A DNA stretch of 64,000 bases, taken from an uncultured Anaerolineae bacterium (GTDB lineage: Bacteria > Chloroflexota > Anaerolineae > Anaerolineales > Villigracilaceae). Within the stretch, counting starts at the first letter, position 1; each line of letters opens with the position of its first letter. Shown here piece by piece: positions 8,319 to 14,237 of the stretch. The stretch spans positions 1-64,000 of the forward strand of contig CAIQVH010000029.1 of the NCBI GenBank assembly GCA_903875215.1, read 5' to 3'. The notes under the pieces were generated by a model, which saw only the letters and a program-made list of their open reading frames with translations, had not been told where the DNA came from and searched no databases. A program made the translations under genes and the position numbers.

Positions 8319-11126
8319 TTACTCTGATTCCAGCGGCCACTGCGGGCAAGTGGCGTGATAGTCCTCCGTGAACCCGAACTGGGCCCATTCCAGACGGGAC
8401 AGGTTGCGCCCGGCGCGCTGACAGGCCGCAGCCAGCCAGGTGTTCAGCTCATTATTCCAAAACTGGACATGCCCATCCACACTACCAGAAACCAGGTACC
8501 TGCCATCCGGGCTGAAAAGCAGGTCCGAGACTTTTTCTGTGTGTCGTTTGAACGGCGCGCTGACGGCCTGGCCTGTCTCCAGGTCGAGCAGGATTACCGT
8601 ACCCTCCTGATGACCTACTGCCAAAAGTTTGCCATCCGGGCTGTAGGCCATGCTGGTGACCTCTTTGAAAGAATTTAATTGTGACACCAGTTCTGCCCGC
8701 TGCACATCCCAGATAAATACAGTAGTATCGACGCTGCCCGACGCCAGGGATTGTCCATCCGGGCTAAACGCCAGGCTGGTAACATCATGCTGCCCAAAGA
8801 GCGGCTCCCCAACCGGCTGGAGGCTGGCCACATCCCAAAGGACAATCGTGCCATCCTCCTCACTCCCCGTAGCCAGCAGGTTGCCATCCGGGCTGAATGC
8901 CAGGCTGGAGATAATGCCATGTTGGCCGTCAAATGGATCCTCCAGCGGCTGACGGCTGACCAAATCCCACAATTGAATGGTACCGTCATCAAGGTACGAA
9001 ACAGCCAGAGTCCTGCCATCCGGGCTGATAGACATTGCAGAAAAATCCCCCGCAGAAGAGGGGAGAGGGTCGCCCTCTGGCTGACAGGTAGATGCATTGA
9101 TCAGGCGAATCTCCGGCTGATCCAAAGCATTAGCGATGTATGCCACGAACATTCCATCGGGGCTGAAGGCAGCCCCCACCGCAATCCCTTCTCCTTCCAC
9201 ACTACAAAGCGGCTGACGTGTCTCAAAATCCACCAAATTTGATATGGACGAATCCGAATTAGTATCGTCCACCGGGATGAACAGGGTTTTTCCATCCGGG
9301 CTGATTGCAATGGAATTCACTTCGCCGCTAAACTGCATGGTTTGGGCTGGTTCCACATTCCACAAAATAACATTGCCATCCCCGCCACCCGAGGCGATGA
9401 ACCTGCCATCCGGGCTGAAAACCACATCGCTGATATAGGAGCCGTGCCCCAGGAGAGGCGCATCCAATTGCGCGAATGTCTCTGCGTCCCACAGGATCAG
9501 GCTGCCATCTTCGCTGGCCGAGACAACCGTTTTACCATCCGGGCTGAAATCAAGCGCATTGACGGTGCTATTATGCCCGTTAAGCGACCCACTGAGCGGT
9601 TGCGGCTGCCCCACATTCCAAAAGAGCAGATCCCCGGCCTCGCTGCCTGTCACCACGGTCTGGCCATCCGGGCTGAAAGCTATACTTTTTACAAGCGTAA
9701 TATGGCCCGTCACCGCTTCCCCCTCCAAAACGATCGGCTGGCGGGTTTCCATATCCAAAAATTGGACCGTGCCATCCATACCACCCAACGCCAGAATGGC
9801 GCCGTCTGGGCTGAAGGCAAAACAAGTCATCGTAAAACTAACATCCGGATTATTTGGATCCAAATCCAACTGAATGGGTTCTCCATCCATCTGACCCGTC
9901 TCCACATTCCAGAACACGATCGAATTTTCAAAATCCTCCGATTGTAGCCAGGCCAGGGTTTGGCCATCCGGGCTGAAAAGCACGTTCCCCAAAACTGCAG
10001 CCTGGATCGGTTCCCCGACGGATTGGCGCGTAGAAACATCCCACAGCATAATGCTCGACGTCGTCCAGGAACCAGCAGCCAGCAGACGGCCATCCGGGCT
10101 GAAAGCAAGACTTTCCACACCACCAGAGTCGGTTCCAGTGCTCAATACCCCCAGGGGCTGGCGTGTCTCCAGATCCCAAAGCGTGATGGAGCCAAGGCTG
10201 CTGCCCGCAGCCAGGGTTTTCCCATCCGGGCTGACGGCAACACTCTGCACCCAGCTATCCTCTTTCAGATATTGAATCAGGTGCAGGTTGGTCTGATCAT
10301 TAGCCCACAGCACCCCGCGTGAAAGCGGCTGATCCTTGAGCGTCTGCGCTTCCACGCCCAACAGCAGCGCTGCAGAAAAGTTGGAACCGCGCTGGGTGAT
10401 AGACTGTGCTGCCAGTTCGCGGCTGCGCGCCATAATGGCGCGTTCAGAAGCCAGCGCAGCCTGAATCAAGCCAAACACCGCCAGTGCCGCCATGATCACG
10501 GCGGCAGCAATCGAAAGCATCGTCACCAGCCGGCGCTGGCGATCAGCCGCCTGGCGGCTTTTCAGCACATATTCGCGCTGCAAATCAGTCGGCGCCGGCT
10601 CTTTGGAACTGTTGAGGGCCAGCTGATGTTCGGCATCCTGTAAATCTTTTCCACGCACCAGCAGGCTGGCGTCTTGGCGCTTCTCCCACTCCAGCGCCTT
10701 CACCTGCAAACGACGATGCGCCTCCACCCAGACCAGATCTGTCTTGATACTCGCTTCAAGCTTGGTCAGCGCTGACGAAAAATCATCCTGCTCACGGAAA
10801 AAAACCCAGTTCAGCCTGGCCAGCACACTATTAACATCACTCGGGCTGACGTCTCGAACTACCACCGGCAGGATACGCTTGCCATTTTTTACCGCATGTT
10901 CCAACTCGCGCCCACAAACTTCCGACTTAATCGAATCCGGGCTGATCAGGAAAATGACAGAATCCGCCGCTTCAATTCCCTTTTGAATCTGATCCCACCA
11001 ATCCGCCGACGGAGGGATGTCATCCCAGTCTATCCAGGAATCGTATCCCAGATCCTTGAGCGACGCATTCAGTTTCCCCGCGAACTCTTTGTTTTTGCGC
11101 GAATAAGAAATAAACAGCTTGGTCAT
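8319..11126 (-). CDS. TIR - transmembrane - WD40 repeat protein
   Basis: 935 residues. The N-terminal TIR domain (1-130) begins KLFISYSRKNKEFA and keeps the putative NADase glutamate (Glu74 in VCGRELEHA). A linker with coiled-coil character is followed by one transmembrane helix (about 200-222). The rest (about 275-935) is a WD40 beta-propeller region with 14 SPDG turns, enough for two seven-bladed propellers. TIR domains of this kind can degrade NAD+ or make cADPR-like signals in anti-phage defence; WD40 repeats are the likely sensor. The topology predicts the TIR and the propeller on opposite membrane faces unless the helix is a hairpin anchor. It is a single gene with its own terminator, next to other conflict-type genes. 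Role in defence is inference. Confidence 0.9.
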   Translation of the reverse strand: MTKLFISYSRKNKEFAGKLNASLKDLGYDSWIDWDDIPPSADWWDQIQKGIEAADSVIFLISPDSIKSEVCGRELEHAVKNGKRILPVVVRDVSPSDVNSVLARLNWVFFREQDDFSSALTKLEASIKTDLVWVEAHRRLQVKALEWEKRQDASLLVRGKDLQDAEHQLALNSSKEPAPTDLQREYVLKSRQAADRQRRLVTMLSIAAAVIMAALAVFGLIQAALASERAIMARSRELAAQSITQRGSNFSAALLLGVEAQTLKDQPLSRGVLWANDQTNLHLIQYLKEDSWVQSVAVSPDGKTLAAGSSLGSITLWDLETRQPLGVLSTGTDSGGVESLAFSPDGRLLAAGSWTTSSIMLWDVSTRQSVGEPIQAAVLGNVLFSPDGQTLAWLQSEDFENSIVFWNVETGQMDGEPIQLDLDPNNPDVSFTMTCFAFSPDGAILALGGMDGTVQFLDMETRQPIVLEGEAVTGHITLVKSIAFSPDGQTVVTGSEAGDLLFWNVGQPQPLSGSLNGHNSTVNALDFSPDGKTVVSASEDGSLILWDAETFAQLDAPLLGHGSYISDVVFSPDGRFIASGGGDGNVILWNVEPAQTMQFSGEVNSIAISPDGKTLFIPVDDTNSDSSISNLVDFETRQPLCSVEGEGIAVGAAFSPDGMFVAYIANALDQPEIRLINASTCQPEGDPLPSSAGDFSAMSISPDGRTLAVSYLDDGTIQLWDLVSRQPLEDPFDGQHGIISSLAFSPDGNLLATGSEEDGTIVLWDVASLQPVGEPLFGQHDVTSLAFSPDGQSLASGSVDTTVFIWDVQRAELVSQLNSFKEVTSMAYSPDGKLLAVGHQEGTVILLDLETGQAVSAPFKRHTEKVSDLLFSPDGRYLVSGSVDGHVQFWNNELNTWLAAACQRAGRNLSRLEWAQFGFTEDYHATCPQWPLESE
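8490..10240 (-). repeat. 14 degenerate WD40-coding repeats
   Basis: Roughly every 120-150 bp the plus strand shows CCATCCGGGCT, or a one- to two-base variant of it, encoding the SPDG turn. I counted 14 occurrences (near 8499, 8636, 8756, 8893, 9018, 9153, 9293, 9411, 9536, 9666, 9803, 9964, 10091 and 10222), of which 12 are exact. The flanking sequence differs between repeats. Confidence 0.85.
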
Positions 11127-11576
11127 ATCATGGTTCCTCCCCCGAATACCTGGAAAAATGACCCCAGCAGCCGTGTCGGTATTCGGGAAAATCCCACGGC
11201 GGCCTGTCCATTTCTACCAGTAAAATTTTTTAACCTTAAGCTGGGTAACTCGTTTAATTATATATCAGAGTTGGCGACGGAGATACCAAATCATCGAAAA
11301 TAAAAAAAGAAAGCACATCGAAGCCATCCAATCGCCAGATCGCCACCACAAAATTCGCAGAGCCGGGAAGCCGGGTACGGATCCGGTCGCTTTCCATCAT
11401 GATTTATTTCAAATTTACAGGTTTTTCAGTTCCCTTTTACAGTCAGCCGGCTCTGGGCTGATTATGATAAAACAAGGAAAAAAGCAGATTTCTGTGGCCG
11501 GCCCGATCTTGTGCGGCTGGCATTTCTTGTTGCGAACAAGTCATCATCGAGATTTTTTTACCGGGAGAGCGGTTTT
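11127..11576. other. 450-bp divergent intergenic region with leader inverted repeat
   Basis: The region separates the TIR-WD40 gene from the chemoreceptor gene. A perfect 10-bp inverted repeat, CCCGAATACC (11141-11150) and GGTATTCGGG (11178-11187), lies in the mRNA leader of the TIR-WD40 gene and abuts its Shine-Dalgarno (GGAGG at 11136-11140). A TATGAT near 11463-11468 could belong to a chemoreceptor promoter, but the nearest TTTACA is 21 nt away. No other gene was seen. Confidence 0.5.
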
Positions 11577-14237
11577 ATGAATCGTTTGTTGAGCAAACTG
11601 CCGATAGGCTACAAATTGGGCGGAAGTTTTATCCTGATCATCCTGATTTTGACGGTTTCTCTTGTGCTCAGCTATTTCGATATGAGCCGGCTGAACCAGG
11701 GGATGGTGTCACAATATTACGACCATACCATCCCAATCCAGAGCCTGGGCGAGGCCAAGGCGTTGCTGGGACAAATCAAGAGTAATTTGCAGTTGTATTT
11801 GCAGATTCCAGAACCAAAAAACACCGCAATCAATAGCGAGGGGCTGCCACAATGCGGAAATTGCCATGTGGCCGAATCCAATGGGACGCATCATTTGGCA
11901 AGCGGACAGCTATCCAATGACACTACCCGCTGCCTGGTATGTCACGCTACACAGGCCAATAACAACCTGCATGGCCGTTCTGTGGCGAATTTTACTGCCG
12001 GACAGGATTGCGCCAGCTGCCACCCTGCAAGTGTCATCTCCAAACAACACAACGAAGTGGAAGCAACCATCACCGGGGAGGTAGTGCGCATCAACGAAAT
12101 TGTCGCGGCTTACAGGAAGAATCCCCTGCTGAGTGCCGAGGAGAAGACCGAGCTGGCCAATTTTGATGTCGCCTGGAACAATTATCAACACATCGTCAAC
12201 GATGTACTGACTAACGCCAACCATGGCCAGGCACAAACGACCTTGCACCGGGTAGTGGGCGGAGATGCCTTCACCAGCCAGCAGGAGGTCGAACAGTCAA
12301 TCAATCGCCTGGTCACCATCCTGCAAGACCTGGCCCGCCAGGCGCAGGAATCCAGCCTGGAGACATTCCACCGGGCCACCCAAGGTTTGGTGGTTGTGGG
12401 GCTGGCAAGCATCCTCCTGGCAGCAGGTCTGGGATTGAGCCTTTCGCACAATCTCCGCACGCCTGTGGAAACCATGGCAACCGGGCTGAAGAACATGCAG
12501 CATGGCAATCTGAACTGGGAAGTGCGTGAGCAGGTCTGGGAAGAGATGATCCAACGGCCGGATGAAATCGGAATCGCAGGAAAAGGCCTGGATGGTACGG
12601 TGAAATATCTGCAAGAGATGGCTGGCATCGCCAACCGGATAGCAGATGGCGACTTAACCGTGCAGGTTGTTCCGCGCGGCGCCGATGACGAATTAGGCCT
12701 GGCCTTTGCCAAAATGGTGGCTAGCCTGCAATCCCTGCTTAAATTGGTCAACCTGAGCGCGAATAATCTTTCTTCAGCAGCTCAAAAGCTGGCTTCAGCC
12801 TCCAGCCAAACCGGGGAAGCTTCCCGCCAGATTGCCAATACCATCCAGCAGGTAACAAAAGGCATCACACAGCAAGGAACAGCCATCACCAAAACAGCCG
12901 GCGCAGTGGAGCAGATGAACAGCATCATCGCCGGAGTGGACCAGGGAACCCGCGAACAGGCGGGAGCCGCCAGCAAGGCTTCGCTGGTCACATTAAGTAT
13001 CACCCAGGCCATTGAGCAGATGGCGGGGAATATCCAATCGGTGGCGCAAGATTCAGCCGGGTCTGCGCAATCGTCACGGGCCGGAGCCCAAACGGTGAAA
13101 CAAACCATCCTTGGGATGGAAGCCATCCGCAGCAAAATGGATATATCGGCCACAAAAGTGACCGAAATGGGGCTGCGTTCAGAAGAAATTGAAGCCATCG
13201 TGGAAACCATTGAAGAAATCGCCTCGCAAACCAACCTGCTGGCGCTGAATGCTGCCATTGAAGCTGCCCGCACTGAAGGCACTGGCAGGCAAACCAACGA
13301 GAAACTGGCCCAGACTCACCTCACGAGCGTGGCCATCCTGCTGGCCGAACTCATTGATCGCAACCGTGAAATCCTGAAATCGTCAGAGTTGTTCGAGCTA
13401 TCGAAACGTCTGAACGTGGAGATATTAAGCATTTCGGACGCCGATGGGGTCATCGTCAGCTCCAGCCAGCCAGATGCAATTGGTTTCCGTTTCCCCGAAA
13501 CTAATCAGGGACAGGCGCATGTATTCCGGGCGCTTCTTACACAAACCAATGGGATGGTGATTCAACCCGTGATGACCCGGGAGGATAACGGACAACCCTA
13601 TCTGTTCGTGGGTGTTTCACGCCACGATCAACCCGGCATTATCCAGACCGGGATGCCCGCTCAAAAGCTGTTGCAATTTGGAGATATTTCTCGCGGCTTT
13701 GGCGTGGTTGCAGATGAAGTCCGCAAGCTGGCCGAACGTTCGAGCCTGGCTACAAAACAAATCGGAGCCTTGATTGAGAATATTCAGAAAACGGTCAAGG
13801 AAGCGGTCAGCGCCATGAAAGAATCGGCTGGCGAAGTGCAATCGGGTGTGCAGCGCGCCAATTCGGCCGGGGGAGCGCTCGAAAACATCTTACAGGCCGT
13901 CGAATCAGTCTACCACCAGGCTGAAGAAGCCGGCAGCGCTGCCAAAAAAGTCCGCGCCGCAGCCGCCGAACTGATCAATGCAGTGGATACTGTCTCCAAC
14001 GTCATCGAAGCTACTTCCGCCGCCGCCGGGAACATGACGATCAACTCTTCAGAGTTGACCCAGGCGATCGAGAATATTGCCAGTGTCAGTCAGGAAAACA
14101 GCGCAGCTATTCAAGAAGTCTCCGCCTCCACCGAGGAAGTATCGGCTCAGATGGAGGATGTCTCCCATTCTGCCGCTGCTTTGCTGAACCTGGCCGAGAA
14201 TTTGCAGGAGCTCGTTTCACACTTCAAGCTGAAATAG
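11577..14237 (+). CDS. heme-c methyl-accepting chemotaxis protein with hairpin-tip insertion
   Basis: 886 residues from ATG 11577 (GGGAGAG 7 nt upstream; the GTG at 11511 lacks a site). Transmembrane helices lie near residues 14-34 and 268-290. The extracytoplasmic segment between them holds three c-type heme motifs: CGNCH (93-97), CLVCH (119-123) and CASCH (145-149), with extra histidines. Two HAMP-like segments follow (about 290-345 and 346-395). The signalling helices begin near 400, and the conserved tip reads EIASQTNLLALNAAIEAARTEGTGR. It is interrupted after residue 571 by about 134 residues and resumes at RGFGVVADEVRKLAERS (706 onward). The insert resembles a PDC/Cache-type sensor (SDADGVIVSSS, IGFRFP, VGVSRHDQPGIIQTGMP). 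Likely a redox- or gas-sensing receptor; no CheA/CheW is in the window. Confidence 0.9.
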   Translation: MNRLLSKLPIGYKLGGSFILIILILTVSLVLSYFDMSRLNQGMVSQYYDHTIPIQSLGEAKALLGQIKSNLQLYLQIPEPKNTAINSEGLPQCGNCHVAESNGTHHLASGQLSNDTTRCLVCHATQANNNLHGRSVANFTAGQDCASCHPASVISKQHNEVEATITGEVVRINEIVAAYRKNPLLSAEEKTELANFDVAWNNYQHIVNDVLTNANHGQAQTTLHRVVGGDAFTSQQEVEQSINRLVTILQDLARQAQESSLETFHRATQGLVVVGLASILLAAGLGLSLSHNLRTPVETMATGLKNMQHGNLNWEVREQVWEEMIQRPDEIGIAGKGLDGTVKYLQEMAGIANRIADGDLTVQVVPRGADDELGLAFAKMVASLQSLLKLVNLSANNLSSAAQKLASASSQTGEASRQIANTIQQVTKGITQQGTAITKTAGAVEQMNSIIAGVDQGTREQAGAASKASLVTLSITQAIEQMAGNIQSVAQDSAGSAQSSRAGAQTVKQTILGMEAIRSKMDISATKVTEMGLRSEEIEAIVETIEEIASQTNLLALNAAIEAARTEGTGRQTNEKLAQTHLTSVAILLAELIDRNREILKSSELFELSKRLNVEILSISDADGVIVSSSQPDAIGFRFPETNQGQAHVFRALLTQTNGMVIQPVMTREDNGQPYLFVGVSRHDQPGIIQTGMPAQKLLQFGDISRGFGVVADEVRKLAERSSLATKQIGALIENIQKTVKEAVSAMKESAGEVQSGVQRANSAGGALENILQAVESVYHQAEEAGSAAKKVRAAAAELINAVDTVSNVIEATSAAAGNMTINSSELTQAIENIASVSQENSAAIQEVSASTEEVSAQMEDVSHSAAALLNLAENLQELVSHFKLK

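Follow-up and report, generated by a model that had tools for sequence, protein, structure and literature searches.

Whether the tip of a chemoreceptor hairpin can hold a module of its own is the question raised by one gene in the window, that is, the whole stretch of 64,000 nucleotides analysed here. Among the parts of a chemoreceptor, the tip is regarded as having the least freedom to vary, as it is where trimers, CheW and CheA come together. In canonical transmembrane chemoreceptors (MCPs) such as Tsr and Tar, it is an uninterrupted turn, and the sensors lie outside the cell or before the hairpin. Trimer contacts and the determinants of CheA and CheW binding are likewise placed near the hairpin tip in PMC4692393. 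The gene in question (11577..14237, + strand) encodes 886 amino acids in a single stop-free frame (11403-14234; the stop codon ends at 14237), with the start taken as the ATG at 11577, a GTG at 11511 also being possible. Its product matched PF00015 (MCPsignal; E 5e-32), 4HB_MCP_1 (E 1.5e-17) and, below the cut-off, HAMP (PF00672; E 4.7e-4, 20.9 bits vs. a cut-off of 25), a domain that exceeded the Pfam cut-off in two receptors with the same kind of insert (L012 and L042).

From its N-terminus, the protein comprises TM1 (residues 14-32; 11616..11672, +; hydropathy scan), an outside domain containing the 4HB_MCP_1 match and three CXXCH c-heme motifs (residues 93, 119 and 145; 11853..12023, +; motif scan), TM2 (residues 271-289; 12387..12443, +; hydropathy scan), a HAMP-like stretch (residues 342-375; 12600..12701, +) and the signalling hairpin. 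Both halves of the MCPsignal hairpin were present, with PF00015 split in two. Profile positions 4-68 were matched by the N-side helix (13044..13289, +), which ends at the turn (...QTNLLALNAAIEAARTEGTGR), and positions 64-171 at 13680-14003, covering the C-side helix (GFGVVADEVRKLAERS...; 13695..14003, +). These pieces adjoin in the profile and are separated in the protein: the model is whole and the turn is interrupted. At the tip, AARTEGTGR is followed by 135 extra residues (13290..13694, +) and then by GFGVVADEV; the usual uninterrupted conserved turn, which reads AARAGEQGKGFAVVADEV in a sibling MCP of the same genome, is absent. The sequence-only reading had placed the break after GTGR (residue 571) and the resumption at RGFGVVADEV (residue 706), and both positions stand, with GR at residues 570-571 and 134 residues between the two arginines. 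It had also put the insert at the turn on the cytoplasmic side, in agreement with the PF00015 halves flanking 13290-13694 and with a hydropathy scan in which the insert followed TM2 without a TM inside (best 19-residue mean 0.94, no TM-grade hydrophobic stretch). The insert contains no stop codon. The claim made for the window protein is thus that of a chemoreceptor whose tip is interrupted, and not that of an ordinary MCP.

The sibling (L031, 8777-10852) was, apart from the window receptor, the sole MCP recovered by a PF00015 search of the window genome. It and canonical MCPs have the TM topology, the MCPsignal hairpin and the conserved tip in common with the window receptor, whereas their turn is uninterrupted and that of the window receptor holds the insert. 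When the signalling domains of the window receptor and the sibling were aligned, the insert was the sole internal gap, and the two receptors could therefore share an array. The window genome carries one CheW (C33:96908) and one CheW-domain CheA (a 717-aa frame at C33:35566, identified by eye), along with flagellar and che genes (contig C33 and L031/L032; gene names by eye). Only two receptors were recovered by the PF00015 search despite these flagellar and che genes. Beside the receptor gene, the stretch at 8319-11126 (− strand) encodes a protein that, by eye, begins TIR-like and also contains WD40-like repeats and a stretch resembling a TM.

The window genome lies in 38 contigs, and the extra residues might be explained by an assembly chimera, or by a segment that is passed over during translation or excised from the protein. 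We regard this as scarcely credible: given homologues that share the junctions in at least 13 other genomes, a chimera is most improbable, and the insert is under coding constraint. Homologues with the same insertion point, on which the sequence-only reading had staked its claim, were found in the form of at least 13 other receptors; its observation holds, and the interrupted tip is real. In total, we counted at least 14 insert receptors, each from a different genome, across four families (f1, f2, f44 and f138), and at least 11 mini-proteins, in which the module occurs almost free of a hairpin, in seven genomes of f2, giving at least 20 genomes with either; hits with a domain E > 1e-8 and repeats of one domain were left out of this tally. 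Among the 152 genomes of the window's own family, the insert was matched in six, at the receptor tip in three (the window, G069 at 73% and G125 at 68%); the remaining matches were a truncated copy in G070 (L004) and, in two genomes, the module elsewhere in other proteins. The G070 copy (L004 288-872) consists of the insert end and a shortened C half of the hairpin and adjoins a normal-tip MCP. Matches were found in at least 14 of 396 genomes in a class sample (tip insert in at least five), in at least six of 400 in a phylum sample (tip insert in at least two) and in at least 12 of 301 in an order sample (insert receptor in at least four, mini-protein in at least two). In samples of at least 300 genomes, scoring was confined to the 10-13 best first-look candidates of each genome, so that the tallies are lower bounds, and the genome samples overlap. 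Five of the 25 genomes in the order of G201 had a match (tip insert in three), as did 20 of the 147 in the family of G344, 13 of them with an insert receptor (seven) or minis (seven; one genome with both), and one of the 27 in the family of G1028. A pattern scan of genome contigs returned two loci only (G069 and G125).

The insert was strongly conserved in length. In seven receptors, the distance from EAA to GF was 142 residues each, gap-free, and in nine receptors and two minis, that from EAA to F was 141-144, compared with eight in the sibling MCP. An alignment of 25 module proteins contained six invariant and fifteen nearly invariant positions; R97, R111, D113 and Q119 (insert numbering) are among the invariant ones. 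Values of pN/pS in three f1 pairs were 0.25, 0.28 and 0.31 for the insert and 0.25, 0.25 and 0.16 for the flanks, the third pair thus having an insert looser than its flanks (0.31 vs. 0.16), and 0.25 for the module in one mini pair; all of these are rough because synonymous sites were near saturation (dS 0.9 to beyond measure).

What the module is was approached through its relatives. Those found with the tip-module profile occupy the region from the first TM to HAMP in proteins whose output is GAF, SpoIIE or MCP (TMs by eye). In an hhalign comparison, tip and outside modules aligned over 127 positions with a probability of 99.9 and an E value of 2.4e-34, the outside set having been gathered with the tip profile itself. 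One relative from G344 (L024) is a receptor that has its module outside while its tip is intact, and the same genome encodes an insert receptor (L014). In four small lipoprotein-like secreted proteins (L015, L016, L017 and L035; by eye), the module is the sole recognised domain. The PDC/Cache resemblance proposed in the sequence-only reading is supported by this homology to modules in sensor position and by weak Pfam matches, and the insert is probably Cache-like, with a fold to match. Among the 25 tip modules scanned against Pfam, five matched sCache_3_2 (best E 3.3e-4) and one dCache_1 (E 0.1), all weakly, and three unrelated models matched one tip module each (E 0.018-0.092). The window insert had no Cache match in that scan and a dCache_1 match of E 0.11 (12.4 bits vs. 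a cut-off of 45) in another. Of the outside relatives, two of eight matched sCache_3_2 weakly, and their inner module matched CitA and DcuS (E 0.012-0.029). The insert profile also found, weakly, a regulator in G525 (E 7.4e-5), which has a Diacid_rec match below the cut-off (E 0.0055).

Searches for a structural relative were uninformative. PDB sequence searches returned no convincing relative of the insert, and NCBIfam nothing for the window insert. AlphaFold2 models of the window insert alone (pLDDT 40.6) and with two relatives (mean pLDDT 50.6) were too poor; the latter showed, at low confidence, helices at 24-48 and 55-65, two strands, a helix and three strands, where a Cache domain would be expected to have a sheet of five strands and a long N-terminal helix. 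Searched with this latter model, Foldseek had nothing at E ≤ 0.001, and VIA-align, for which Z ≥ 8 was required, scored 6.0 at best (a Pur-alpha chain); no fold is claimed or denied from either search because the input model was too poor. Cache families are described as principally extracellular, two small ones excepted, in PMC4822843, and the insert's place in the cytoplasm does not exclude membership since cytoplasmic Cache families exist. The insert's relatives, like Cache and dCache sensors, lie between TM1 and HAMP, whereas the insert itself is cytoplasmic, inside the hairpin. The long N-terminal helix of Cache is described there as a direct extension of TM1; at the tip, the hairpin helices would stand in place of the TMs that flank the module. 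A Cache domain inside the cell also has a parallel in intracellular Cache use, of which the G525 regulator may be an example, but not in chemoreceptor tips.

We therefore turn to what such a module might do. The reading that we favour, with moderate confidence and from sequence evidence, is that a cytoplasmic Cache-like input module, kin to the outer module of transmembrane sensors, was captured into the hairpin turn, at the end where CheA and CheW bind, in an ancestor probably within the class Anaerolineae. The module sits at one fixed point between the hairpin halves, as its relatives do between TM1 and HAMP, and in the window receptor the tip sequence is kept on both sides of it. Beyond the architecture, conservation and gene context observed, we predict a Cache fold, a ligand, entry into arrays and control of the kinase. 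The hairpin would still form and join the array, with the module hanging below the CheA/CheW layer (baseplate), and a ligand or state in the cytoplasm, sensed by the module, would alter tip packing and hence kinase activity directly, bypassing the route through the membrane, HAMP and the methylation helices. In the window receptor, it would be a second sensor, at the opposite end from the outside domain and its three c-heme motifs; some relatives have the module as a soluble tip protein of small size. Counted against this are the weakness of the Pfam Cache matches, the unrelated models that matched single members, the lack of a convincing PDB relative, the rarity of insert receptors (at least five of the 396 class genomes), the one f1 pair with a looser insert and the drifted tips described below for f2.

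If several families keep a module of 135 residues at the tip, this would reveal the true task of the turn, and signals could enter there without passing the membrane, HAMP and the methylation helices. As a signal could be applied at the tip itself, control of CheA from the tip would become testable. A known case of sensing by the cytoplasmic signalling domain is Bacillus subtilis McpB, in which, according to PMC7542364, ethanol is bound within the signalling domain, between helices, mainly at residues 423-433. The likeness is that the signalling domain itself takes part in sensing; the difference is that McpB has no added domain and its site is not at the turn. Searches of one open-access library on the tip, Cache and Chloroflexota receptors, and on heme receptors, turned up no description of a tip insertion, an absence of little weight given that subscription papers lay outside the search.

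The outside modules of the insert receptors vary (triheme, HBM or almost none), and the tip module is constant. Three c-heme motifs were found in the outside part of f1 receptors, including both f1 orthologues of the window receptor (motif scan), and HBM in that of G1055 (E 5.2e-8). In hydropathy scans of 12 of the 14 insert receptors, the TMs were separated by 156-313 residues in G201, G344, G1055 and G1165, by 6-14 in G333, G1028 and G1116, and by 42-43 in G1124 and G1089. In these last five, which lack an outside domain, no sensor other than the tip module can be recognised. The window receptor is perhaps a triheme, redox-sensing chemoreceptor, judging from its motifs; according to PMC3460858, a single heme is present in each of the c-heme MCP sensors GSU0582 and GSU0935. 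The outside c-heme motifs and the tip-only proteins of related genomes were both absent from the earlier reading.

The genes next to the insert receptors bear on whether the module senses anything. In G1124 and G1165, HDOD, CheX, CheX and CheW genes precede the insert receptor on one strand (neighbours were assigned by Pfam scan at two receptor loci and at one receptor beside a mini, and by motif scan elsewhere). This arrangement might suggest that the insert serves for docking or spacing and has no sensory role: it would bind another protein, such as CheX, CheY or a factor for localisation, or fix the geometry of the array; the near-constant length would likewise suit a fixed geometry. However, the insert's relatives sit in sensor position, between TM1 and HAMP, and we hold this explanation to be a minor though serious candidate.

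The tip residues themselves are relevant to another possibility, namely that the insert breaks kinase control and that these receptors act as decoys, diluting or capping arrays, and are heading for decay. Tip residues had drifted in five of the seven f2 receptors (EAAH or EAAQ for EAAR, and EVY for EVR) and further in the minis, so that kinase control may be weakened in these proteins, and the truncated copy in G070 could be taken as decay under way. In contrast, a canonical tip was kept on both sides of the insert (EAAR or ETAR, and EVR) in the f1 and f44 receptors and in those of G1028, G1116 and G1124, the f1 inserts and flanks are both constrained (pN/pS 0.25-0.31 and 0.16-0.25), and the insert receptor follows CheW in two genomes. 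Decoys appear quite improbable on this balance, and the captured input module remains the preferred reading.

The mini-proteins (L040, L041, L057, L058, L059, L061, L064, L071, L073, L074 and L077) are open frames of 220-277 aa, with a short N-terminal helix (...INAAIESAHA), the module and a short C-terminal helix (helices by eye). No TM was predicted in ten of the 11, and the L093 mini had one marginal stretch (1.66). The L041 mini had no Pfam or NCBIfam match; in that of L074, the two stretches flanking the module matched MCP models weakly (E 3.8e-4 and 0.008). At four loci (L089-L092), a mini lies 104-118 bases downstream of a co-directional receptor with an intact tip, TMs only 13-30 residues apart and no outside sensor. 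The other seven minis had no receptor right beside them in a motif scan, L096 having two further off. The three mini-only genomes covered by a 101-genome MCP search (G1057, G1074 and G1107) all encode MCPs, compared with 27 of the 101 genomes overall. It is possible, as a tentative proposal, that tip modules are plug-in sensors at the kinase end, reading the cytoplasm and acting on CheA at once, and that in some Anaerolineae the tip-only protein docks with the sensorless receptor encoded just upstream. The soluble receptor YfmS carries its sensor in front of a long hairpin. It is named as soluble in PMC7542364, and the minis share with it the lack of a membrane anchor and the possession of a sensor of their own, but in them the module occupies the turn and there is hardly any hairpin.

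The origin of the tip module was examined with trees from which fragments of < 90 profile positions (L004, L021 and L023) and, in a second tree, also L069 were left out. Most outside modules formed one supported group apart from the tip and mini modules, and three long-branched outside modules (L045, L047 and L069) stood apart. Tip insertions might have arisen more than once from related modules, given that the best tree without L069 needs two label changes and that only one is needed in 12% of 200 bootstrap trees. Forcing the 25 tip and mini modules into one clade, however, cost 1.24 log units and was not rejected (p-AU 0.40), and the junction and length are common to the insert receptors. 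Several origins are accordingly considered unlikely; a single capture is allowed by the trees, not proven. Coverage outside Chloroflexota consisted of plasmid, phage and viral records and one pattern scan. No relative of the window region, A1 or A3 was found in viral contigs, and the window insert had no match in phage records; a phage origin is thus unsupported by the records searched. Plasmid records of Paenibacillus cellulosilyticus and Acetoanaerobium noterae were matched, with the L012 insert and later a mini-protein as queries, and at the places examined the module lies outside and the tip is normal. Two Firmicutes receptors (L108 and L109) have an outside module and a normal tip, and the VSR-D--G signature of the tip modules also occurs in the Acetoanaerobium receptor of this pair.
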